64,000 nt of DNA from Lysobacter sp. TY2-98 (GTDB taxonomy: Bacteria > Pseudomonadota > Gammaproteobacteria > Xanthomonadales > Xanthomonadaceae). Numbering within the stretch: the first letter of the stretch is position 1; every line of letters begins with the position of its first letter. Where the stretch lies: contig NZ_CP031413.1 of assembly GCF_003367355.1 (NCBI RefSeq), positions 1,592,921-1,656,920 of the forward strand, in the 5' to 3' direction. Positions 49,795 through 62,480 of the stretch are shown one piece after another. The notes beneath the pieces are model-generated. The model did not search any database. It was not told where the DNA came from and worked only from the letters and a program-made list of their open reading frames with translations. A program made the translations under genes and the position numbers.

Positions 49795-50463
49795 TTGCCA
49801 TCCCTCACGGACACCGCGATGACCGCCTTGCAAGAGAGAGCCGACCGAAACCTGCAAGACCTCCAATTTGCCGGCGAACAGGCCAGCCGACTCCGGATGC
49901 CAGGATCCATGCCTGAGCACCATCGCACGGCACTCGCGCTGCTGCGCGCGGCGTACGACGACGCAGTTGCGATCAACATGCTTGTTCTTAACTCGAGCGG
50001 GGAACTCGCTGGCAGCGCTTTCAGCCTACTTCGCCCCATGAACGACAAATTCAAGCGAGGCTCTTGGTTCCTTCTCTGCGGCGACGAGGAAAGCGCTCTA
50101 GATTTCCTCAAGAATGACAATGCGCCCAAGGGCAATTTGGCTCAACAGATTGAGGCGCATCCTCCCTTCGATCAATTCAGGATCTTCTCGGAGCTATATC
50201 AGAACGCATTCGGCTTTTTCCATTCATTCACCCACGGCGGTAACCAAATTGCGAACGGTTACATTGCCAGCAACGGAATCGGTGCGTCCTACCCGGAATC
50301 CAAAATCATCCAAGCCATTGATCACGCTCAAGCCGTCGGCATTACCGCCGTACAGGTCATGGTGATGCTTGGCGGAGAATACGACTCAACCACGGGGAAC
50401 GACATTCTGGATCAGCTTGGAGCCAGATTTGTGCCGCGCCCTGCCGGAACTCACACGGATTGA
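49795..50463 (+). CDS. DUF6988-like soluble protein (accessory region)
   Basis: The product is 222 residues. The pattern HHRTALALLRAAYDDAVAINML, SAFSLLRPMNDKFKRGSWFLLC and FHSFTHGGNQIANGY recalls the DUF6988 family (helical, His-containing), which occurs as lone genes in accessory regions. I have low certainty in that name. There is no signal peptide. It is bracketed by repeat copies on its left and lies in the low-GC segment. Confidence 0.65.
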   Translation: MPSLTDTAMTALQERADRNLQDLQFAGEQASRLRMPGSMPEHHRTALALLRAAYDDAVAINMLVLNSSGELAGSAFSLLRPMNDKFKRGSWFLLCGDEESALDFLKNDNAPKGNLAQQIEAHPPFDQFRIFSELYQNAFGFFHSFTHGGNQIANGYIASNGIGASYPESKIIQAIDHAQAVGITAVQVMVMLGGEYDSTTGNDILDQLGARFVPRPAGTHTD

Positions 50464-50662: not shown

Positions 50663-51487
50663 CTATCGCTTCGAAGGCTCCACTTGAAGCCAAGGTTGAC
50701 CAGTCGGGCTTTCGAACAACAGGGCTCCCAACTCTTCCATTTTAAGCAACTGGTCCGCGCCGCATTGAGGCGTAGTCCAAATCGTCGATTGCATGGCAAC
50801 AGCGATTTCGCCGACTTCGGGTGGGTGGCGTATAGCAGCTGACGAAGCGACTAAGACGCCACACAGACGCTTCGCGGCGATGTAGCCGGCCAGCCGCGTG
50901 TGATGACGGTTTAAAAAATCGATGTTGTGGTTATCTAAGAAGGCGACGGCATCATCAGGAGACCGAGCCTCCACGATGCAGTAGGGCGGCAGCAGATCGT
51001 CAACGCACACGGCCAAGAGCCCGGGCACCGTAGCGTTTGAAATCTGCCTCACTCCAGTCGACAACTGCAGTTCCGCGTTTTTCGCCGAATAGATACGCTT
51101 GCATGCAATTGCCAACTCGCCGGACGGCAACGCAACCATAACGTCCGGCTCACGCAGTTCCGCCGTTACGTTTCGACTTCTTAGCAGATGCAAAAGCTCC
51201 AACTCCCACAACTTATCCTTGGCTCTTGAAGGGCTGCGATCACCCGGGCCGATAGCGCCCTTCTTCAACGGCCAAAGGTGGGTCTTCGAATCCGGATGTC
51301 CCGTGAGGACGCTCGCAGCTTGTGCCAATCGATCAACGTGCTGCCCATTTAGCAGTGCGCGCACGTGCCCCGGTTCGTCTGACGGTGGCAACCCGTTCTC
51401 GCTGTAGTCGATTGCAAGCTCTATTAGTCGACCGAGATCGGAGGCGGGATTGATGGCAATGCCTACATCAGCAAATTGCGTTCGCAA
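50663..51487 (-). CDS. PD-(D/E)XK nuclease-like protein, 5' end uncertain
   Basis: The product is 274 residues from TTG 51487. No ATG or GTG occurs in frame; the open frame continues 19 codons further to a TAA and its extra sequence (VFDILTAAARAADRLR) looks natural, so the true start may be lost or non-standard. A nuclease core is visible: a helix with ELELLHLLRSR, the Asp in TAELREPDVMV (about residue 115), then ELAIACKRI with the Lys at 130, and a helix with GVRQIS. The usual D/E before the Lys is Ala here, so activity is uncertain. It sits alone in the defence-like region. Confidence 0.65.
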   Translation of the reverse strand: MRTQFADVGIAINPASDLGRLIELAIDYSENGLPPSDEPGHVRALLNGQHVDRLAQAASVLTGHPDSKTHLWPLKKGAIGPGDRSPSRAKDKLWELELLHLLRSRNVTAELREPDVMVALPSGELAIACKRIYSAKNAELQLSTGVRQISNATVPGLLAVCVDDLLPPYCIVEARSPDDAVAFLDNHNIDFLNRHHTRLAGYIAAKRLCGVLVASSAAIRHPPEVGEIAVAMQSTIWTTPQCGADQLLKMEELGALLFESPTGQPWLQVEPSKR

Positions 51488-51693: not shown

Positions 51694-52776
51694 CTAGGCC
51701 AACGCTAACAGGCGGCTTTCGATACGTACGCCAAACTCGGGAGGAACTCGGGTAGCCCTAGAGAAGTAATCAGCCATCAGAATCGCGAAGCGCACTGCCT
51801 GACCGTCGCTCTTCGCCAACGCAGACAAATATGCGCGATCACCGGCAATCAAGCCATACGCGCACTCTTTAAGTATCAAGCTCGCGCGCATTACTGCATT
51901 CGGATCGTCGAGCAGCTGCCGCAACAGCTTGGTGAAACGCGGCCATTCCGGCGGTGCAAGATCGTCGTCGAAGTCGTCACCATGGCGAGACTGCTTAACG
52001 AGCTTAAACAGACGATTCTGTTGTTCGTACGCCTCCCTGCCCCCGTACAGCTTCATGCGGACGGCCTCCTCGAAGTCGGCACCCGACGCCGGTAAGAGCA
52101 TGATCCGAAAGATCGACGAAACCAAAGCGGTCAATGAAAGGCCGAACATGGAGGCGAGGTCGCCGAACAGGACCTCGTGCTCGACGTGCGCCGGATCAAA
52201 CTCAGCTCGCGTTTCGAGAACGTTAGCTACGACCCTGCGGCAACCAGAGTGGCTTGACCGCATGCGCCAAAACTCCCCCGCCCTGTAGGTCAGCAACGGT
52301 CCCAGAGCCGGAAACCTTGCCTTGAGGCCCGCAATCCGCTCCCAAGCGTCAATCGAAGCGACTGCCGCCTCGCGGGTCAAATCTTTGCCTGAGCTAACCT
52401 TCGCGAAGGTCTCGAATTCGTCCTCAGGGATAAGGACCACACCGAGCTCCTGCGCGACCTGCCGGTGATCGGATTCGATACTGGCCTTCTTAAGCACACA
52501 GAACGCCTGCTCAGCGCCGAAGTGACGCATCAATCCACCGAGCCATAGCGACCGGTTCGCGCCCGACTCAGCGGCTTTCGTCTTGCAGTCGAAAAGTATC
52601 GATTGCGTGCCCAAAACCGGATCGGGTACAACCGCGATTACGTCGATATCGGTGACTAACGACACGCGCTGACCCACTCGCGCCGGTGGTGCAACCTCCA
52701 CTTCCATGTGTGGATACCATCGACGTGTCGCTGCATAGCGCAACGCCAACTCCTTGATCGCGCGGTCCTTGATCAT
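51694..52776 (-). CDS. PD-(D/E)XK (Mrr/restriction-endonuclease-like) protein
   Basis: The product is 360 residues. The catalytic core near the N-terminus has EVEVAPP, the Asp pair in VTDIDVIAVV (residues 43 and 45) and FDCKTK with Asp63-Cys-Lys65, which fits the D-x(n)-(D/E)xK pattern. The remainder is helical, about 290 residues of unknown fold. It follows the HTH-rich protein gene by a single base (52777), so the two are translationally linked. Low-GC coding style indicates recent transfer. The pair looks like a two-gene nuclease-based defence module (inference). Confidence 0.75.
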   Translation of the reverse strand: MIKDRAIKELALRYAATRRWYPHMEVEVAPPARVGQRVSLVTDIDVIAVVPDPVLGTQSILFDCKTKAAESGANRSLWLGGLMRHFGAEQAFCVLKKASIESDHRQVAQELGVVLIPEDEFETFAKVSSGKDLTREAAVASIDAWERIAGLKARFPALGPLLTYRAGEFWRMRSSHSGCRRVVANVLETRAEFDPAHVEHEVLFGDLASMFGLSLTALVSSIFRIMLLPASGADFEEAVRMKLYGGREAYEQQNRLFKLVKQSRHGDDFDDDLAPPEWPRFTKLLRQLLDDPNAVMRASLILKECAYGLIAGDRAYLSALAKSDGQAVRFAILMADYFSRATRVPPEFGVRIESRLLALA

Positions 52777-52777
52777 C

Positions 52778-54052
52778 TTATTTATTGAAGATTATTTCGA
52801 GCTGGTGGGCGGCCTCTTCGGAAAGAGGGGCTTTCGTAGACTCCTTCAGCTTAGCGCTCGCGATCAGCGACTCAACGTAGTGCTGCTCCTGCTGAAGCGC
52901 ACGACGCGCGTCTTCGTCCACTTCGATCCCCGCTACCCCACCGCTAGTCACGAGCTGATAGGCCATCTCCAGCGCCTCGGTGTTTTCCTGCGTCTCAATG
53001 ACGTGGAGTTCGGCGTACCCATTGCCTACAGGAACGAGCCTGGCAATTCGGAGGTGCTGAAGATTTTGGTACTGCTCCCGAGCTTCCGTCGTCGCGCGAC
53101 CCAATTTACCGTGGTGCTTCAGCTGGCCGATGATCGCCGCCGGATTGCGCACCGCAAACTCCCTCGGCAAGTACTGCCCCTGACGGATTGCCGCAACGAT
53201 CGCCATTGCGCGCTCGTAAATTTCGCGCTTCGAACCCGCCAACGCAGCGCTTCCCGGTGTGGGCGTGAACATGAAGTGGTTCTCGCCCGAGTGCGACGTA
53301 ACGATCGTCGGCGGCCGGACAACACCATCGCCGGCCAACCGCTGCAATATCGCGATCTCGTCAGCCGTCAGATTCGAATTCCCCTTCTTCGAAGCGGCCT
53401 CGAGCACTGACAACGGCACGCCCTGATTATTTCGCAACTCCTGCAGAACCCTTTGGACGCCCTTTGCGCCGGACTTCGCCACTGCGTCGGCGAAGATGTC
53501 GGCGTTCTCCGTGAAATAGGCAGGGCTGAGTAGAAGATCTTTACCGCGATGCCGATTCTTCTTGATGTAGCCACCGTCAACGCCCAAGGACACTGCACGG
53601 TCGAAACGCCGACTGTCGGCACCCACCGCATTGCGCAGCGCATCCAACTTATCTGGCGACTTGGCAAGCCGCCGCAACAGCTCGACCGAAAGCTGCTCGG
53701 TCTCATTCAGACCGACGTCCGCGGCGTACTCGCCTATCGTTTCGTACAGACTCTCGTAGTACGGCACATCGGGCACGACCTTGTCGATTGTCCGCCCAGT
53801 TGTCGCCAGCTTTACAAACTCGACCTCGGCCAGCATCTCGACGACCGCCCGCAGCGCGAGTGGGCTGATATCCAAGAAATGACTAGCGACAAGCTTGAGC
53901 TTTTCGTAATCGATGGTGGGCAGACCCTGAATATGAAGGGCTAGCCGAACCGCGCTACCGACCAGCGTCAGCTGTTCAAAGTCGTCGACGACCTTGTTCG
54001 CTAACCCCGTCTGGATCTCATGGCACCGAACCGCGAGTTCTTTGTTATCCAT
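52778..54052 (-). CDS. HTH-rich protein of the nuclease pair, unknown family
   Basis: The product is 424 residues. Most of it is predicted helical with several winged-HTH-like units (LKLVASHFLDISPLALRAVVEML, QLSVELLRRLAKSPDKLDALRNAV, GVPLSVLEAASKKGNSNLTADEIAILQRLAGDGVV, AIIGQLKHHGKLGRAT). No catalytic motif was seen. It is the first gene of a two-gene unit with the downstream nuclease-like gene, one base apart. It may be the DNA-recognition or sensor component. The icmF 3' copy lies immediately upstream. Confidence 0.7.
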   Translation of the reverse strand: MDNKELAVRCHEIQTGLANKVVDDFEQLTLVGSAVRLALHIQGLPTIDYEKLKLVASHFLDISPLALRAVVEMLAEVEFVKLATTGRTIDKVVPDVPYYESLYETIGEYAADVGLNETEQLSVELLRRLAKSPDKLDALRNAVGADSRRFDRAVSLGVDGGYIKKNRHRGKDLLLSPAYFTENADIFADAVAKSGAKGVQRVLQELRNNQGVPLSVLEAASKKGNSNLTADEIAILQRLAGDGVVRPPTIVTSHSGENHFMFTPTPGSAALAGSKREIYERAMAIVAAIRQGQYLPREFAVRNPAAIIGQLKHHGKLGRATTEAREQYQNLQHLRIARLVPVGNGYAELHVIETQENTEALEMAYQLVTSGGVAGIEVDEDARRALQQEQHYVESLIASAKLKESTKAPLSEEAAHQLEIIFNK

Positions 54053-54090
54053 GCCCCCGTCCTTGAATAACTCGGCTGCCGCTTAGGCCA

Positions 54091-54655
54091 TCACATATTC
54101 CGCCTGTACTCCCCACCCACCTCATACAGCGCATGGCTGATCTGCCCCAGCGAATGCGTCTTCACCGCCTCCATCAGCGCCTCGAATACGTTGCGGCGCT
54201 CGCGGGCGGTCTTCTGCAGGAAGCGTAGGCCGTCCCCTGCCCGCGCGTTGCGGTTGCCCTGGTAGCCGGCGACGTTGCTGATCTGCTGGCCCTTCTCTTC
54301 CTCGGTCGAGCGGATCAGTTCGATCTCGGTGGCGACGTCGGAGTGGCCGTCCTTGCCGAGGAAGGTGTTGACGCCCACCAGCGGCAGCGAGCCGTCGTGC
54401 TTCTTGTGTTCGTAGTACAGCGACTCTTCCTGGATCTTGCCGCGCTGGTACATGGTGTCCATGGCGCCCAGCACGCCGCCGCGCTCGCTGATGGCTTCGA
54501 ACTCCTTGTAGACGGCTTCTTCGACGATGTCGGTGAGCTTGTCGACGATGAAGCTGCCCTGCCAGGGGTTCTCGTTGAAGTTGAGCCCCAGCTCCTTGTT
54601 GATGATCATCTGGATCGCGACGGCGCGGCGCACGCTTTCTTCCGTCGGCGTGGTG
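54091..54655 (-). pseudogene. duplicated 3' fragment of icmF
   Basis: The segment encodes the last 188 codons of the IcmF mutase (from [10 protein letters not shown] to GEYRRNM and a TGA stop). From 54093 to 54655 it appears identical, base for base, to 57589-58151 at the 3' end of the intact gene. It has no start codon of its own with a ribosome site; an open frame that reads in from the repeat upstream gives a chimeric start only. It is a non-functional remnant and marks one end of a duplication or insertion. Confidence 0.92.
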
Positions 54656-54658
54656 TAG

Positions 54659-54704
54659 AAAAAGGGTCGGGTCCAATTCTCAAGAAATGAGCCTGACCCT
54701 TTTT
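54659..54704. repeat. hairpin repeat at the icmF breakpoint
   Basis: AAAAAGGGTC (54659-54668) and GACCCTTTTT (54695-54704) form a perfect 10-bp stem around 26 bp. It belongs to the dispersed repeat group and starts three bases after the icmF duplication ends. Confidence 0.75.
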
Positions 54705-54854
54705 TACTCGTGTTGGTGCACTGCGACGAGGCCATCGACAAAAACCGTTAGCCACTGGAAATACAGCTAGACCGAACCCTACCTGCAGATCGCGACAACG
54801 CAACCGCCAACGCGCGCCGGAGTCAATGACGGGGCAGATTCCCTATCCATTGGA

Positions 54855-54920
54855 AGCGAACCTGACCCCATTTCCAGTCGGGCTCAAGGCCGCAGAAAAT
54901 GAACCCAACCCCATTTCCGG
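54855..54920 (+). repeat. dispersed CTGACCCC repeats, copies 14-15
   Basis: AAGCGAACCTGACCCCATTTCC and ATGAACCCAACCCCATTTCC lie 46 bp apart directly downstream of the HEPN gene, ending 4 bp before its stop codon. Confidence 0.7.
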
Positions 54921-54923
54921 AAC

Positions 54924-56258
54924 TCAATACAACACCAGCTCTTTGCGCCCATACCACAACTTGCCATTCGGAATCCCGATCATTCCGAACGCGATCTGCT
55001 CTAGGGTGGGGAGCAGAAATTCTTCTATGAGTTGCGAAATCTCTGCGCTCAGAGACTGAGACGTCAAGTGAAACTCTGTCTCTTTGTTATGAACGATCGA
55101 ATTTCGCACTATGTAGACAAGCTTCGCGTAATTGCCGTGCACGCGTTGTCCTGAGAAATCGGACGCACTTTTTTCATACCCCAGCCGCTGCAGGGCGCTA
55201 TTAATTGCAGCGGAACCATGGGCCGCCACCAATGCGCTCCAGGTGTCGCGGACCAGCTTCCCGTACTTAACGACACTCGTCGCATGTAGGTCAAAAGCCG
55301 TTTCGAACAGCTTTTCTAACGCAGGCAATTCTTTCAGGCTAACCGAGTCGTAAAGCCGACGAAAATCTCGGATTGAAAACATAGAGCCGTTTCTCTGCCG
55401 CTCTAGGTCCACAATCGGCATCTTGAACATCAAATTTTCTATAACGTGGTATATGGTCAGATACTTCAACAGAAGCTCGTCTCTGCTGTTGTATTCGCTT
55501 AACACTCGGAGCACATCGGCCCATTGGTGGTACGCCGACTCTGCCCGGACGGAATCCTTATCCACCACGGCCGGCGTGCGACTAATACGCCGTGGCGTAT
55601 GCGTGGGCAGCCCGGCCATTGCAAGATGCAGCTCGACAAAGGCCTCAATCTCTTTAATGCCGAGTTGAGGATTTGATTTTTTGACTACCGCACAGGGGCA
55701 AGTGACAACCGGCTCTGCGACCGCTAAGGCCGCAAGAAAGGCGAAAGCCAGCTCTTGCGAAGCTGCAGCGGACGCAAGCCCCGCCTCAAAGGTCGCAAGA
55801 TCCCGCGAATCGAACACAACCAAGGACTCGTTGGGCTGTCGGGCGTTCTCATGAAGGAACCAGGCTGGGGCGAGCTCAACCCCAGGAATACCATGGACTG
55901 TAAACGCCGTTTCGTCGACGTCAGCCGCATCCAGTACAGGGGCATGATTTACGCACAGCCAGCCTGCGACGCAGCAGAATGCAATTAACAAATCGCGGCG
56001 AAAATCCGGGAAAGTAGGGAACCTTCTACCAAACTCGTCAAGTGCAACCGCAATCTCGCCCCACCTGCCAAGAAGCGCACGGCCAGCTTTTGCGCCGGCA
56101 ACCTCCGCCCCAAAATTTCGCAACGTTTCGGTCAGGGTGACGAACTCGTCTTGGGCGGGCCCGACAAGCCCTGCAGCAAAGGTCTCAGCGGCTGGCGAAT
56201 CCGAGAGATGCGTAATCTGCGCATACAACCAATCGTATAGAACCTCGTACTTCTTCAC
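54924..56258 (-). CDS. protein with C-terminal HEPN-type RNase motif (effector candidate)
   Basis: The product is 444 residues from GTG 56258, which overlaps the TGA of the upstream gene (GTGA) and is preceded by GGAGG; an ATG at 56288 is in frame but lacks the spacing. The N-terminal 200 residues are helical with a hydrophobic patch (LIAFCCVAGWLCV). The C-terminal third has the HEPN pattern: a helix with LLLKYLTIYHVIENLMF, then YAKLVYIVRNSIVHNKETEF, where Arg385-N4-His390 is the RxxxxH active-site motif of HEPN ribonucleases. Such domains act as toxins in abortive-infection systems. It is encoded with the ParB/DGQHR-like gene, in low-GC DNA. Confidence 0.75.
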   Translation of the reverse strand: MKKYEVLYDWLYAQITHLSDSPAAETFAAGLVGPAQDEFVTLTETLRNFGAEVAGAKAGRALLGRWGEIAVALDEFGRRFPTFPDFRRDLLIAFCCVAGWLCVNHAPVLDAADVDETAFTVHGIPGVELAPAWFLHENARQPNESLVVFDSRDLATFEAGLASAAASQELAFAFLAALAVAEPVVTCPCAVVKKSNPQLGIKEIEAFVELHLAMAGLPTHTPRRISRTPAVVDKDSVRAESAYHQWADVLRVLSEYNSRDELLLKYLTIYHVIENLMFKMPIVDLERQRNGSMFSIRDFRRLYDSVSLKELPALEKLFETAFDLHATSVVKYGKLVRDTWSALVAAHGSAAINSALQRLGYEKSASDFSGQRVHGNYAKLVYIVRNSIVHNKETEFHLTSQSLSAEISQLIEEFLLPTLEQIAFGMIGIPNGKLWYGRKELVLY

Positions 56259-57478
56259 GCCGCCTCCATAGCGAAATACTTGCGCCAATGGAGGTTGCTC
56301 GAAGGGTTATGCAGAAGACTCAACGTGGCATTGAAGACAGCAAGTCGATTTACATTTCCGATGTTTATCTTGCTGAGATCCAGACTGTTTCGTGTAGATT
56401 CAAATTCTGAAAGCCTTAAAGCTTTCGGGTTGGCTTTAAGTGTGGCGATGAACTTTTTGAAGGGAAACTCTCTGGAGTTGGACTCGGCAAAATACGCGCC
56501 GAGCCCAGCAAACAGCCCTGAAAGCGTTACTTCCCGTCCGATCCAAAGGCGAGCGAGGTCGCCGTGCTGTTCCTCCAGAAGTGCCTCTAAGCGAACTAGG
56601 AAACGGACTGCCTCGTTGAACAATTCCGGATCGATTGCCAGCGTCGCATCTTCCTCATCATCGGAAGCACCATTGACCTCCTGGACTAGGCCTGTCGACG
56701 CAGCAACTGGCCTCCCCCTCAGGAAGGAAAGCATCGCGGTAATTAAATGAGCAAAGTGGAACTCTCCAGGTGCTCTGACTTTGCTGAACTGCGACGAACC
56801 AACCTCTTTCTCGCGAACGATTTCGAACTTGCCAGCCCCCGCTCTACGAAGAACCGGGAGTAGATTGAGGAACAGCAGCTCAAGCTGATGGCGTGTCTTC
56901 ACAGGCTTATGGCCCGCGTTGAGGATCAGCATTTTTCGGACTTCGTCAGCGGCCGTGAGGCCAGTCCATACCTCAAACCACTGGGGATTCTTCGATAAGC
57001 AGTTTCGAAGCTCATCAGCCCCGTGCTCGGAACGAAACTCCAAGACCGCCCTCAGAATCTCGGTATTCGAACTGTGCTGGCGCAGTTCGGTCGAAAACTT
57101 GCGCGAGAACGCGAAGCGCGAAAGTCCCAAGAGTTCGCTCGGATCCAGGTGCTCTGACAGCGCAAATTCAATCGTTCGCTGTATCGCGTGCAGCCTATAT
57201 GTGCGCTGCAACCCGTCCAAAATCTTAAAGTTCTCGATTGTTAGCGACGAGCCGTTTTTGGACACAGTTTTGGCGATCAACACAATAGGGGGTATGTGTC
57301 GTCGCTCAAGTACTGTGGACACAAGATGGTCCAAGTAGACGTTTGAGACGATCTCGCGCTGGACCTCGTAATCTTCATATGAAGCTGGAAGCGAGGCTAG
57401 GTAGTCGCCGAGCTTGATCGAGCATAGATAACAGGTGGCTTTTCGCTCAGACCTTTTATCCAGATATTGCGCCTTCAT
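56255..57478 (-). CDS. ParB/DGQHR (DUF262-like) domain protein, partner of the HEPN protein
   Basis: The product is 407 residues from ATG 57478, preceded by AGGAGA. It has the N-terminal ParB/sulfiredoxin-type order: YEVQREIVSNVYLDHLVSTVL, then IPPIVLIAK, then FKILDGLQRTYRLHAIQ, where DGLQR (88-92) takes the place of the DGQHR/DGQQR motif of DndB-like and DUF262 proteins. These proteins bind nucleotides and take part in DNA modification-linked defence. The C-terminal 250 residues are helical and unrecognised. It ends in a 4-bp overlap with the HEPN gene, so the two products are probably made together. No methyltransferase or Dnd gene is present. Confidence 0.75.
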   Translation of the reverse strand: MKAQYLDKRSERKATCYLCSIKLGDYLASLPASYEDYEVQREIVSNVYLDHLVSTVLERRHIPPIVLIAKTVSKNGSSLTIENFKILDGLQRTYRLHAIQRTIEFALSEHLDPSELLGLSRFAFSRKFSTELRQHSSNTEILRAVLEFRSEHGADELRNCLSKNPQWFEVWTGLTAADEVRKMLILNAGHKPVKTRHQLELLFLNLLPVLRRAGAGKFEIVREKEVGSSQFSKVRAPGEFHFAHLITAMLSFLRGRPVAASTGLVQEVNGASDDEEDATLAIDPELFNEAVRFLVRLEALLEEQHGDLARLWIGREVTLSGLFAGLGAYFAESNSREFPFKKFIATLKANPKALRLSEFESTRNSLDLSKINIGNVNRLAVFNATLSLLHNPSSNLHWRKYFAMEAA

Positions 57479-57586
57479 TGGCTCTCCTAGACTTGGCAAA
57501 CCGTGACTGAACGCAAGCACCTGCATCGCGCATCCGTTTTCGTCAGCTATGGCCGACGAACCTGGATAGCTGCACCGCTCAGCCCA

Positions 57587-60500
57587 TTACATATTCCGCC
57601 TGTACTCCCCACCCACCTCATACAGCGCATGGCTGATCTGCCCCAGCGAATGCGTCTTCACCGCCTCCATCAGCGCCTCGAATACGTTGCGGCGCTCGCG
57701 GGCGGTCTTCTGCAGGAAGCGTAGGCCGTCCCCTGCCCGCGCGTTGCGGTTGCCCTGGTAGCCGGCGACGTTGCTGATCTGCTGGCCCTTCTCTTCCTCG
57801 GTCGAGCGGATCAGTTCGATCTCGGTGGCGACGTCGGAGTGGCCGTCCTTGCCGAGGAAGGTGTTGACGCCCACCAGCGGCAGCGAGCCGTCGTGCTTCT
57901 TGTGTTCGTAGTACAGCGACTCTTCCTGGATCTTGCCGCGCTGGTACATGGTGTCCATGGCGCCCAGCACGCCGCCGCGCTCGCTGATGGCTTCGAACTC
58001 CTTGTAGACGGCTTCTTCGACGATGTCGGTGAGCTTGTCGACGATGAAGCTGCCCTGCCAGGGGTTCTCGTTGAAGTTGAGCCCCAGCTCCTTGTTGATG
58101 ATCATCTGGATCGCGACGGCGCGGCGCACGCTTTCTTCCGTCGGCGTGGTGATGGCTTCATCGTAGGCGTTGGTGTGCAAGCTGTTGCAGTTGTCGAACA
58201 GCGCGTACAGGGCCTGCAGCGTGGTGCGGATGTCGTTGAACTGGATCTCCTGCGCATGCAGGGACCGGCCGCTGGTCTGGATGTGGTACTTCATCATCTG
58301 GCTGCGCGGCGAGGCGCCGTAGCGCTCGCGCATGGCGCGGGCCCAGATGCGGCGGGCGACGCGGCCGATGACGGTGTACTCCGGGTCCATGCCGTTGCTG
58401 AAGAAGAACGACAGGTTGGGCGCGAAGTCGTCGATGTTCATGCCACGCGCCAGGTAGTACTCGACGATGGTGAAGCCGTTGCTCAGCGTGAAGGCGAGCT
58501 GGCTGATCGGGTTCGCGCCGGCTTCGGCGATGTGATAACCGCTGATCGACACCGAGTAGAAGTTGCGGACCTTGCGATCGACGAAGTACTGCTGGATGTC
58601 GCCCATCATGCGCAGGGCGAACTCGGTGCTGAAGATGCAGGTGTTCTGCGCCTGGTCTTCTTTCAGGATGTCGGCCTGCACGGTGCCGCGCACGGTCTGC
58701 AGCGTGTAGGCCTTGATGCGCTCGTAGACCTCGGGTTCGACGACTTCATCGCCCGTGACACCCAGCAGGCCGAGGCCCAGGCCGTCGTTGCCTTCCGGCA
58801 GCGGGCCTTCATAGCTGGGCCGCACGCGGCCTTCGAACATCTTCTCGATCTTGTCGTGCGCGGCATCCCAGCGGGACTGGTCCTCGCGCAGGTACTTCTC
58901 CACCTGCTGGTCGATCGCAGTGTTCATGAACATCGCGAGGATCATCGGCGCGGGGCCGTTGATCGTCATCGACACCGACGTGCTGGGCGCGCACAGGTCG
59001 AAGCCGGAGTACAGCTTCTTCATGTCGTCGAGCGTGGGGATGTTGACGCCCGAGTTGCCGATCTTGCCGTAGATGTCCGGGCGCGGCGCCGGGTCTTCGC
59101 CGTACAGCGTGACGCTGTCGAACGCGGTCGACAGGCGCGCGGCCGGCTGGCCAACGCTGAGGTAATGGAAGCGGCGATTGGTGCGCTCCGGCGTGCCCTC
59201 GCCCGCGAACATGCGGATGGGGTCCTCGCCGGTGCGGCGGTACGGATACACGCCACCGGTATACGGGTACTCGCCCGGCAGGTTTTCCTTCTGCAGGAAC
59301 GTGAGCAGTTCGCCCCAGCCCTTGTAGGTGGGCGCGGCGATCTTCGGGATCTTCTGGTGCGAGAGCGACTCGCGGTAGTTCTCGACGCGGATGACCTTGT
59401 CGCGAACCTTGTATTCGGTGATGTCGTCGGTGATCGACTTCAAACGCGCCGGCCATTCGCGCAGCAGCTTCAGCGCTTCAGACGTGAGCGACTGCACCGC
59501 GTCGTTGTAGCGCTGGCGCAGCGTGAGCAGCGAGCGGTCGACGGTGGTTTCGGCCGCCGGCACCGGCACGGACGGCGACGGGCTGTCGGGCACGTTCGAG
59601 CCGGTGGGCTGCACGCTGGTGCCGAGCAGGTCGGCGCTGTCGTACAGGTCGAGCGCCTTCGGCAGGTGCGCGTCACCGAGTTCCTTCAACGCCTGCCACA
59701 GCGACTGCGCGCGGTCGGCGATCTCGGCCTGCGTCTCGATCTGGCGGTTGATGCCGCGGCCCTGCTCGGCGATCTCGGCGAGGTAGCGCACGCGGCTGCC
59801 GGGGATCAGCACGGTGGCGCGCGGTTCGCGCAGCGAGGTGTCGATGTCGGGCGTCCACTTCTCGCTCGGCAGCTGAAGCTTCTCGCGCAGCAGGCGGCAG
59901 AAGTTGGCGAACATCCAGCTGATGCCGGGGTCGTTGAACTGCGAGGCGATGGTGGGATAGACCGGCACATCCTCATCCGGCATCTGGAACGCGACGCGGT
60001 TGCGCTTCCACTGCTTGCGCACGTCTCGCAGGGCGTCTTCGGCACCGCGCTTGTCGAACTTGTTGAGCACGACGAGCTCGGCGTAATCGAGCATGTCGAT
60101 CTTCTCGAGCTGGCTCGGCGCGCCGAAGTCGGACGTCATGACGTACATCGGGAAATCGACGAGGTCGACGATCTCCGAATCGCTCTGCCCGATACCGGCG
60201 GTTTCGACGATGACGAGGTCGTAGCCCGTGGCCTTGAGGAAGCCGATGCAGTCGCGCAGCACGACGTTCGTCGCCGCGTGCTGGCGGCGCGTCGCCATCG
60301 AGCGCATGTAGACGCGGTTGCTGCGCAGCGAGTTCATGCGGATGCGGTCGCCCAGCAGCGCACCACCGGTGCGGCGACGGGTCGGGTCGACCGAGATCAC
60401 CGCGATGTGCATGTCGGGGAAATGCGCGAGGAAACGGTTGAGCAGTTCGTCGGTGACCGAGGACTTGCCCGCACCGCCCGTGCCGGTAATGCCCACCACC

Positions 60501-61117
60501 GGCGTCTTGCTGCCGGCCAGCTGCCACTGCTTGCGCAGGTGCGCGAGCTGCGCTTCGTCGAACGCGCCCTCTTCGATCGCGCTGAGCATGCGACCGAGCG
60601 CGATCTCGTCGGTCATCGCCGGGTGCGTGGTGTCGGGCTGGCTATCCAGGCGCGCGGCCGAGGCGCGACGGATCACGTCCTCGATCATCGCGACCAGGCC
60701 CATGTGCATGCCGTCGTTCGGGTGGTAGATGCGCTCCACGCCATAGGCCTGCAGCTCGCGGATTTCCTCCGGCGTGATCGTGCCGCCACCGCCGCCGAAC
60801 ACGCGGATGTGGCTGGCGCCGCGCTCGCGCAGCATGTCGACCATGTACTTGAAATACTCGACGTGGCCGCCCTGGTAGGACGACAGCGCGATCGCGTCGG
60901 CGTCTTCCTGCAGCGCCGCGCGGACGACGTCCTCCACCGAACGGTTGTGGCCCAGGTGGATGACTTCCGCGCCCTGCCCCTGGATCAGGCGGCGCATGAT
61001 GTTGATGGCGGCGTCGTGCCCGTCGAACAGGCTCGCGGCGGTGACGAAACGCAGCGGCGTTGCGGTCTCCGTGGCGGTGGCGGTGGTTTCGGGCAGGCGG
61101 TCGGCAGGCGAACTCAT
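57587..61117 (-). CDS. icmF: fused isobutyryl-CoA mutase (IcmF)
   Basis: The product is 1176 residues from ATG 61117 (the frame extends upstream without natural composition). The order is the IcmF fusion: an N-terminal B12-binding domain ([10 protein letters not shown], cobalt-ligating His34, with a GGGGTI loop), a G3E-type GTPase chaperone domain (Walker [13 protein letters not shown] at 209-220, then [14 protein letters not shown]), and a C-terminal methylmalonyl-CoA-mutase-type catalytic domain with the TIM barrel ([21 protein letters not shown]). It interconverts isobutyryl-CoA and n-butyryl-CoA. The last 563 bp are duplicated 3.5 kb away. Confidence 0.95.
57589..58151. repeat. 563-bp direct repeat, copy 2 (copy 1 at 54093-54655)
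   Basis: The segment matches 54093-54655 with no difference that I found, in the same orientation, at an offset of 3496. It is inside the intact icmF gene here. Beyond the left edge the two flanks still match imperfectly (GCTnAGnCCAT pattern), and beyond the right edge they diverge at once. Confidence 0.9.
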
Positions 61118-61211
61118 GGCGGTCGCACATCTATTTCTAAGGATGCGGCGATTGTAACAAGGCGTCCGTACGGGCCCTGCCTGCCGCGTAGGGTCGGTTA
61201 CGCTGCGCGCC

Positions 61212-62480
61212 ATGACGGATTCCAACGACATCGGCGCCCTGCGCGCGAAGGCCGCGAGCGGCGCCCCGGACGACCTGCACCGCCTCGCGGCCGGCCTCGT
61301 CGCCGACCTGCAGATGGAGGAGGCGCACGCCATCCATGTGAAGGCCGCCGCGGCGGGACATGTGGGGTCGCTGATCGAGCTGGGGCGGATGCGGATGTAC
61401 GGCGTCGGCACCGACACGGACCTGCCGGGCGCGATCGAGGCACTGGAACGTGCGGAGGCCGCAGGCCAGCCAGTCGCGGGTTACTTCCTCGCGCTGATCG
61501 GGCTGGGAAACAAGGCACTGCCGCGGGACGAGAAGGTCGCCGCGCGCCTGCTCGCCGCGGTGCAGGCCGGGCACCCGCCCGCCCTGCGTGCCGCCGCGAT
61601 CCACTTCGGACGCAAACCCAACCTGCAGGACCAGGCGCTGGCCGTGCAGCTGCTCGATCACGCCGCCGGACGCGGTGACGCGATCGCTGCCCAACTGCTC
61701 GCCGAACGCCTGCGTCGCGGTGAAGGCGTGACTGCGAATCCGGAGGCGGCGTCGCAGCTCAAGGCGCGCCTGCGCGAGAGCGGGTTCACCGACCTGCCGG
61801 AGATCATCGCGGTGCCGGCGGCGCCGAGGCATCTGGTACCGCCCTCGTCACTGGTACTCGAGGAAGTGCTGGATCCGCCGCCGTCGACCGTGCTTGCGAC
61901 CGATCCCGGCATCGCGCAGATCGACGGGCTGCTGTCCGTCGACGAATGCCGCCTGCTGGTCGCGAGCGCGCAGCCGATGCTGCGGGCGTCGCAGGTGCAT
62001 TCGCCGGATGGACGCGAAGTCGGCCGGGAATCGCTGCGCACGAGCAGCGATGCCTCGTTCGATCCGCTGACGGAGGACTTCGCCTTGCGCCTGGTGCAGC
62101 TGCGCATGGCCGCGGCCGCGGGCGCGGAACTCGTCGACGCCGAACAGCTCATCGTGCTGCGCTACGAACCGGGACAGGAATACCGCCCGCATCGCGACTA
62201 CCTACCGCCGGACGCGATCGAGCGCGACGGGCCGCAGGCGGGCAATCGTCGGCGCACGATCTGCGCCTATCTCAATACGCCGGCTGAAGGCGGGGCGACG
62301 GAATTCCCGGAGCGCGATCTGCGCGTCGAGCCGCAGGCCGGGCGTGCAGTGGTGTTCGACAATCTGGATGCCGACGGTCGCCCGCAGCCCGCCTCGCTTC
62401 ACGCGGGCCTGCCCGTGGTGCGCGGCGAGAAGTGGCTGGCCACGCTGTGGCTGCGCGAGCGGGCCTACCGCGCGTTCTGA
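61212..62480 (+). CDS. Sel1-repeat protein fused to a prolyl 4-hydroxylase-type 2OG-Fe(II) oxygenase
   Basis: The product is 422 residues. The first 200 residues are Sel1-like repeats ([56 protein letters not shown]). From about 225 a P4Hc domain begins ([25 protein letters not shown]); the iron triad is His327 and Asp329 (YRPHRDYLP) with His397, and Lys407 for 2-oxoglutarate ([19 protein letters not shown]). It likely hydroxylates a protein side chain, with the repeats binding the target (inference). Confidence 0.92.

Follow-up and report, generated by a model that had tools for sequence, protein, structure and literature searches.

The described systems to which the locus analysed here is closest include the Can2/Card1 and VC1899 nucleases (family DUF1887) and the two-gene system Dazbog (DzbA and DzbB). 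Hachiman (HamAB) likewise consists of two genes, one for a sensor, a helicase, that restrains an effector nuclease (accessible portion of PMC12278908), and the BrxA-type proteins of BREX contain three helix-turn-helix (HTH) or winged-HTH units (accessible portion of PMC12839542). In the part of PMC13092281 that was available, DefensePredictor is reported to have validated 42 units in E. coli, 13 of the 31 E. coli systems validated in one class contain PD-(D/E)XK domains, and an HTH label is defined in the legend of Figure 4.

The genes studied here, denoted P and N, lie in a stretch of 64,000 nucleotides from Lysobacter sp. TY2-98 (positions 1,592,921–1,656,920 of contig NZ_CP031413.1), hereafter the window. 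Their open reading frames (ORFs) have the sizes, strand and coordinates given in an earlier note that was made from the letters of the window alone (Table 1); as that note also had it, one base separates the TAA stop of P from the ATG of N, and the pair lies in low-GC DNA, with a GC content of 0.53–0.59 in the 1-kb blocks between 49 and 58 kb versus 0.63–0.74 in the remaining blocks of the window. The adjoining fragment of icmF, another claim of the note, is genuine: it matches the 3′ end of the full-length gene, with all three mismatches near the stop codon, within the first 14 matched bases, and its edge is 26 bases before P. The ORF over the fragment matches the Pfam family MM_CoA_mutase, and the gene name icmF is taken over from the note. 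The order of the modules is the end of the full icmF, the HEPN pair, the icmF 3′ copy and the P–N pair, that is, the mirror arrangement with the HEPN pair is real, and the HEPN pair is the known system Dazbog (PADLOC E-values 8.9e-32 for DzbA and 2.1e-11 for DzbB). PMC13092281 names DUF6988 among newly found links to defence, and with the DUF6988 protein, besides Dazbog and P–N, the island contains at least three defence candidates. Short GAAATTCGACTCTGACCCCTGTT-like repeats are present at the island edge (48316, 48827, 48872 and 49701), and words similar to these are seen by eye between the modules, at approximately 54680–54920.

Table 1. Features of the low-GC island and the adjacent icmF gene (positions in the window)
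Feature	Position	Strand	Remarks
DUF6988 protein	49795-50463		Pfam E 6.3e-10; PADLOC PDC-S52 E 4.2e-6
274-aa ORF	50663-51487		without family match; possible degenerate PD-(D/E)XK stretch EPDV...IACKR (by eye)
N, PD-(D/E)XK nuclease fold (predicted)	51694-52776	minus	360-aa ORF; second gene of the pair; from model and residue conservation
P, four tandem winged-helix units (predicted)	52778-54052	minus	424-aa ORF; first gene of the pair
Second copy of the icmF region's final 577 bases	54079-54655	minus	574/577 identical to 57575-58151
DzbB, Dazbog (HEPN pair)	54924-56288	minus	PADLOC; module separate from P–N
DzbA, Dazbog (HEPN pair)	56255-57526	minus	PADLOC; module separate from P–N
Full-length icmF ORF	57587-61417	minus	insertion hotspot at its 3′ end; approximate start codon

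The assignment of N to the PD-(D/E)XK superfamily is supported by the predicted core fold and by the conservation of the D and (D/E)xK residues, and nuclease activity is predicted on this basis. The motifs in which the earlier note saw such a core, IDVIAVV and FDCKTK, are both present in the sequence. In the AlphaFold model (pLDDT 93.5, pTM 0.92; input alignment of 39 rows), the elements follow the order expected for the superfamily (helix, three strands, helix, strand) within a core of approximately residues 1–130, the first helix spanning 5–17, and the C-terminal region (approximately 142–359) is all-helical. Superfamily members head the list of structural neighbours of N (VIA), with Z up to 12.1. 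The best of those compared with the core are AF1548 (Z 12.1, rmsd 3.2, 115 residues aligned), VC1899 (1xmx; Z 11.7, rmsd 2.5, 116 aligned), Can2 (8bao; Z 11.0, rmsd 2.7, 117 aligned) and Cdn1 (Z 10.6, rmsd 3.0, 114 aligned); EndoMS and a Pyrococcus repair endonuclease (Z 8.9–9.8) as well as MspJI and AspBHI are also among the fold neighbours. Searches with the N model found no match reaching E 0.001 in Foldseek and nothing at E 0.001 in a library of viral structures, where the weaker rows are mostly short generic nuclease folds, and the N profile has no match among PDB sequences. In an alignment of 48 N proteins of clade 1 and 11 of clade 2 (the second clade is described below), D43 and D45 are present in 59/59 sequences, position 63 is D or E in 59/59, and K65 is retained in 58, the exception being a viral copy with R (DCRT; L011:3469-4569). 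R75 and G81 are invariant in all 59 proteins, whereas H200 and G246 are invariant within clade 1 only.

The winged-HTH-like make-up of P claimed in the note agrees with the structure model (pLDDT 83.8, pTM 0.74; input alignment of 37 rows), in which there are four units, each of three helices and two strands, with bounds at approximately 27–94, 117–175, 196–261 and 273–351, as read from the listed model elements. Given these pLDDT and pTM values, the units are more reliable than their mutual arrangement. The second unit aligns with BigR (3pqk; Z 9.5, rmsd 2.7, 65 aligned), and the whole-chain Foldseek matches to RPC62-type arrays are weak, the top rows reaching a TM, normalized by query length, of at most approximately 0.20. 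Comparison of the P profile with PDB sequences yields four weak rows, three HTH regulators and one bacterioferritin, the best being MarR (E 0.051), and the only PHROGs match of P is a weak one, to a CII-like protein (E 0.019). P is acidic (charge -7.3 for the copy in the window; clade-1 median -4.5), which does not favour simple DNA binding, net charge being a weak guide.

MspJI is a modification-dependent enzyme, as is AspBHI according to its title, and their proximity to the N core in fold, together with the lack of a methyltransferase within the pair, would suit a two-gene modification-dependent or sequence-specific restriction enzyme in which recognition of a modified base or site by P would be followed immediately by cleavage through N, independently of any detection of infection. 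These fold neighbours are, however, common to the whole superfamily, and the P model consists of winged helices alone, with no base-flipping reader domain recognized by eye, so this explanation appears rather improbable.

That the pair is unrecognized, as stated in the note, holds across the databases searched: P and N have no match at E 1 in Pfam, NCBIfam or PADLOC (PADLOC-DB 2.0), and PHROGs adds only the weak match of P. At the level of sequence, the pair thus appears to belong to no system modelled in PADLOC, with a single weak match, to LmuC (E 0.038), for the three pairs of clade 2 that were compared. A literature search by keyword and with six E. coli protein accessions, which took in main texts and a minority of the subscription papers, returned no description of the pair.

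P and N are consistently found together. A tblastn search of 72,556 plasmid records detects P in 10 and N in 8, all within those 10, and the loci of 8 of the 10 P-positive records were inspected; P profiles yield another 40 loci from a genome scan and 3 from a viral scan. Among the 52 loci with P, a count that covers every such locus except those of the window's own genome (L013 and L053 by profile only), N directly follows P in 50; in one of the two exceptions (L020), the contig ends inside P, and in the other (L010), P stands without a detectable N. Several loci almost duplicate others (L012/L013, L017/L019, L022/L053, L026/L029 and L006/L047), so that the number of independent cases of pairing is below 50. 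The gap between the genes ranges from -14 to +31 bases (44 loci; start codons partly chosen by the analyst). The two-gene module of the earlier note is thereby confirmed, and of the two outcomes set beforehand as refuting it, neither was obtained: co-occurrence in other genomes is near complete, and the two proteins could be assigned to no known family. The divergence of P and that of N are correlated (r = 0.906 for 45 pairs, with none of 2000 shuffles as high), and N lacks a P-like gene in 0 of the 8 plasmid records and 0 of the 5 N-bearing genomes of a 398-genome survey. The conservation of gene order and catalytic residues across phyla is more than expected by chance, and the conserved nuclease site, the near-complete pairing and the parallel divergence together suggest a nuclease action of N for which P is required.

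An alternative explanation is addiction, that is, a toxin–antitoxin module that stabilizes plasmids and islands, with N as a toxic nuclease and P as an antitoxin that neutralizes it and regulates its own gene. In its favour, the genes overlap or touch with the HTH-type protein first, the surroundings include plasmids and relaxase or recombinase genes, and N is never seen without a P-like gene while P occurs once without N (L010). Yet 2 of the 52 loci combine a frameshifted P with an open N (L049 and L051; a sequencing error is possible), and conservation is higher for P (median identity 0.40) than for N (0.28). Furthermore, both proteins are large for a toxin–antitoxin module. As for a possible operator for autoregulation, an inverted repeat above shuffles is found upstream of P in only 6 of 46 loci (approximately 2 expected), with no common motif. 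We regard the addiction module as unlikely, albeit worth keeping in mind.

The matches come from ten phyla, namely Pseudomonadota, Bacillota, Bacteroidota, Cyanobacteriota, Chloroflexota, Acidobacteriota, Verrucomicrobiota, Armatimonadota, Myxococcota and, on plasmids, Actinomycetota. The P of the window clusters, with support, in a set of eight whose other members come from betaproteobacteria, Pseudomonas, armatimonads, acidobacteria, verrucomicrobia and viral sequences; further gammaproteobacterial copies, L041 and L039 among them, fall elsewhere. This grouping fits horizontal spread, short of proof. At the same time, the pair is rare, being present in 2 of the 274 genomes of the class and 2 of the 398 of the phylum, the window's own genome counted in each. 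Among 100 relatives, N finds its own genome and G094, the latter with E 5.1e-4 over residues 158–308 in a 646-aa frame; none of the 26 pattern matches from a scan of genome contigs with the single N protein is a relative. No match for P or for clade-2 N was detected in 50,697 phage records. In one Jeotgalibacillus contig, the pair is contained in two identical stretches of 15,263 bases approximately 83 kb apart (L017 and L019), which are either a large repeat or an assembly artefact. The proximity of EndoMS and the Pyrococcus repair endonuclease to the N core could point to a housekeeping DNA repair nuclease of the EndoMS/NucS kind, but the rare and patchy distribution and the mobile surroundings make this hardly credible.

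The profile of N detects three further weak matches in the 398 genomes (E 1.7e-8 to 1.1e-5), each directly behind a gene for a protein of 416–425 aa. Profile comparisons link the two genes of these loci to their counterparts, the first to P (Prob 96, E 3.2e-9, 344 columns) and the second to N (Prob 95, E 2e-8, 230 columns), where the new profiles contain three sequences each and the E-values are those of a single comparison; a distant second clade with the identical gene order is thus supported at the sequence level. Clade-2 P is found in 15 plasmid records, with an N-like gene following it in 6 of the 6 inspected. Both clades are represented in E. coli, where a DNA search of 5426 complete genomes finds clade 1 in 6 and clade 2 in 22, always on the chromosome; the matches span 71% and 38% of the respective queries, and those listed (all 6 of clade 1 and the best 10 of the 22 of clade 2) overlie two hypothetical proteins. 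The full pair in element-like surroundings is present in each of the E. coli loci inspected (2 of the 6 and 3 of the 22). The E. coli pairs include WP_021293063 with WP_129560323 for clade 1 and WP_000377565 with WP_000723546 for clade 2. The clade-1 element (L101 and L102), located between nadC and ppdD, carries two recombinase genes and a type III restriction subunit; its edge towards nadC holds a short prepilin-type ORF and the other the complete ppdD, as though it had inserted at the start of ppdD. The three clade-2 islands encode an integrase or recombinase along with relaxase genes, and contain a Hxs cluster in one case and an ABC-three-component system in two.

The neighbours of the pair match many PADLOC models and differ between loci. 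Among 251 ORFs that flank the pair, at most three per side, only 12 groups of 2–3 are shared, three of these coming from the near-identical L006 and L047, and with no recurrent neighbour family, a third gene of the module is not indicated. In the PADLOC test of 150 of these ORFs, which comprised loci other than the plasmid loci L003–L010, two sets of 72 and 78 proteins match 283 and 152 models, respectively, at E 1e-8, figures that count models rather than proteins, there being many models per system. The models include type I restriction, MADS, DruM, AbiLi, LmuB, AriA, pAgo and PD-Lambda-2. No PADLOC match was obtained for 67 control ORFs from six 15-kb blocks of a single genome, that of the window. 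Pfam detects a phage integrase in 3 of 72 neighbours; its remaining matches among the 150 are to many families seen once each, some of them housekeeping. In one viral contig (L011), the pair follows a DUF4055 gene, presumably with a portal function, and in another (L012), it lies between polymerase-like and integrase-like ORFs (by eye). The pair is, therefore, associated with defence genes and with mobile elements, that is, plasmids, viral contigs and E. coli islands, and this genomic context supports the anti-phage role implied by the earlier note, which is putative.

In two loci (L006 and L098), the pair adjoins a MobF relaxase gene, and in a third (L093), trbB is approximately 5 kb away; along with the relaxase genes of all three inspected clade-2 islands of E. 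coli, this could reflect a role in the transfer or establishment of the element, as a relaxosome or entry accessory, rather than in immunity. However, no neighbour family recurs across the loci, and the pair is also found at a chromosomal defence hotspot and in viral contigs, which renders such a role very unlikely.

The hotspot in question is the 3′ end of icmF, at which defence genes recurrently insert and copies of the gene end accumulate, in the window and in four loci of relatives (L071, L073, L074 and L075). A match to this 3′ end is present in 53 of the 60 genomes searched, the window's own included, a few of the matches being weak, and partial second copies occur within approximately 7 kb on the same contig in five other genomes of the order (G002, G009, G019, G020 and G071) and in the genome of the window; some of these are just 88–157 bases long, and the copies of four of the five were re-checked. 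In two relatives from the genus, the diguanylate cyclase gene located beyond the island also follows icmF, with different genes in between. Of 10 ORFs chosen from five of eight such sites of relatives, 6 match PADLOC at E 0.001: NsnA twice, Orf5/HEC-06 and PDC-S02, and, more weakly, GajB and DpdB. Inspection by eye of the part of the window that runs from icmF to the far flank recognized no integrase, and a literature search for icmF as a hotspot found no description. The icmF 3′ end emerges as a defence hotspot of this bacterial family.

Taken together, the evidence gives about an even chance that P–N is an immune module of two subunits that acts against phages or plasmids and travels as cargo of mobile elements. 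The combination of winged helices with the lack of an ATPase or methyltransferase suggests that P supplies sensing or targeting, and we infer the following scheme. P, with its four tandem winged helices and no ATPase, would be the sensor or locator and would hold N, which would stay quiet within the P–N complex. The ligand of P would be foreign nucleic acid, either phage or plasmid DNA itself or a structure on such DNA. N would be the effector, probably a metal-dependent DNase with a core resembling those of Can2, VC1899 and EndoMS, and would cut DNA once P has engaged its target, the outcome being cleavage of the phage DNA or sacrifice of the cell. Several observations count against an immune function, namely the acidity of P, the weak Foldseek matches, the lack of matches in the phage records, the L049 and L051 frameshifts, locus L010 and the viral copy with the K65R replacement; of these, the acidic P, the lone P and the two frameshifted P genes with an open N leave room for toxin–antitoxin and the other readings. 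Somewhat less likely than not to hold in full is the broader proposal of an undescribed, pan-bacterial, ATP-free form of two-subunit immunity, with two anciently diverged clades, in which a sensor of four winged helices would directly arm a Can2-type core without a helicase, guide or second messenger. If true, it would add an unlisted, widespread family to the catalogue of defence systems and raise the question of how a winged-helix array devoid of an ATPase tells foreign nucleic acid from self and switches a nuclease on. The presence of both clades in E. coli makes the proposal directly testable.

Compared with the known systems, the core of N aligns with those of Can2/Card1 and VC1899 over 110–117 residues (Z 8.1–11.7) and shares their D...(D/E)xK pattern, but N starts with the nuclease core, without a CARF-like alpha/beta domain, the rest of the protein is helical in the model and, unlike Can2/Card1, it has a separate winged-helix partner. 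Type II restriction-modification differs in its cognate methyltransferase, for which the P–N unit has no gene. Dazbog is likewise a two-gene module and occupies the same icmF hotspot, whereas the sequences of P and N do not match its PADLOC models. As far as the accessible portion of PMC12278908 goes, Hachiman shares with P–N the two genes and the restraint of a nuclease by a sensor that is proposed here, but the HamAB sensor is a helicase, and P and N have no Hachiman match in PADLOC. The tandem winged helices of BrxA, as outlined in the available part of PMC12839542, are a defence component of the kind proposed for P, which differs in having four units, a nuclease partner and no PADLOC or Pfam match. 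Finally, the PD-(D/E)XK systems validated with DefensePredictor, to judge from the available part of PMC13092281, contain domains of the same superfamily as N, and the P–N pair may be among them.
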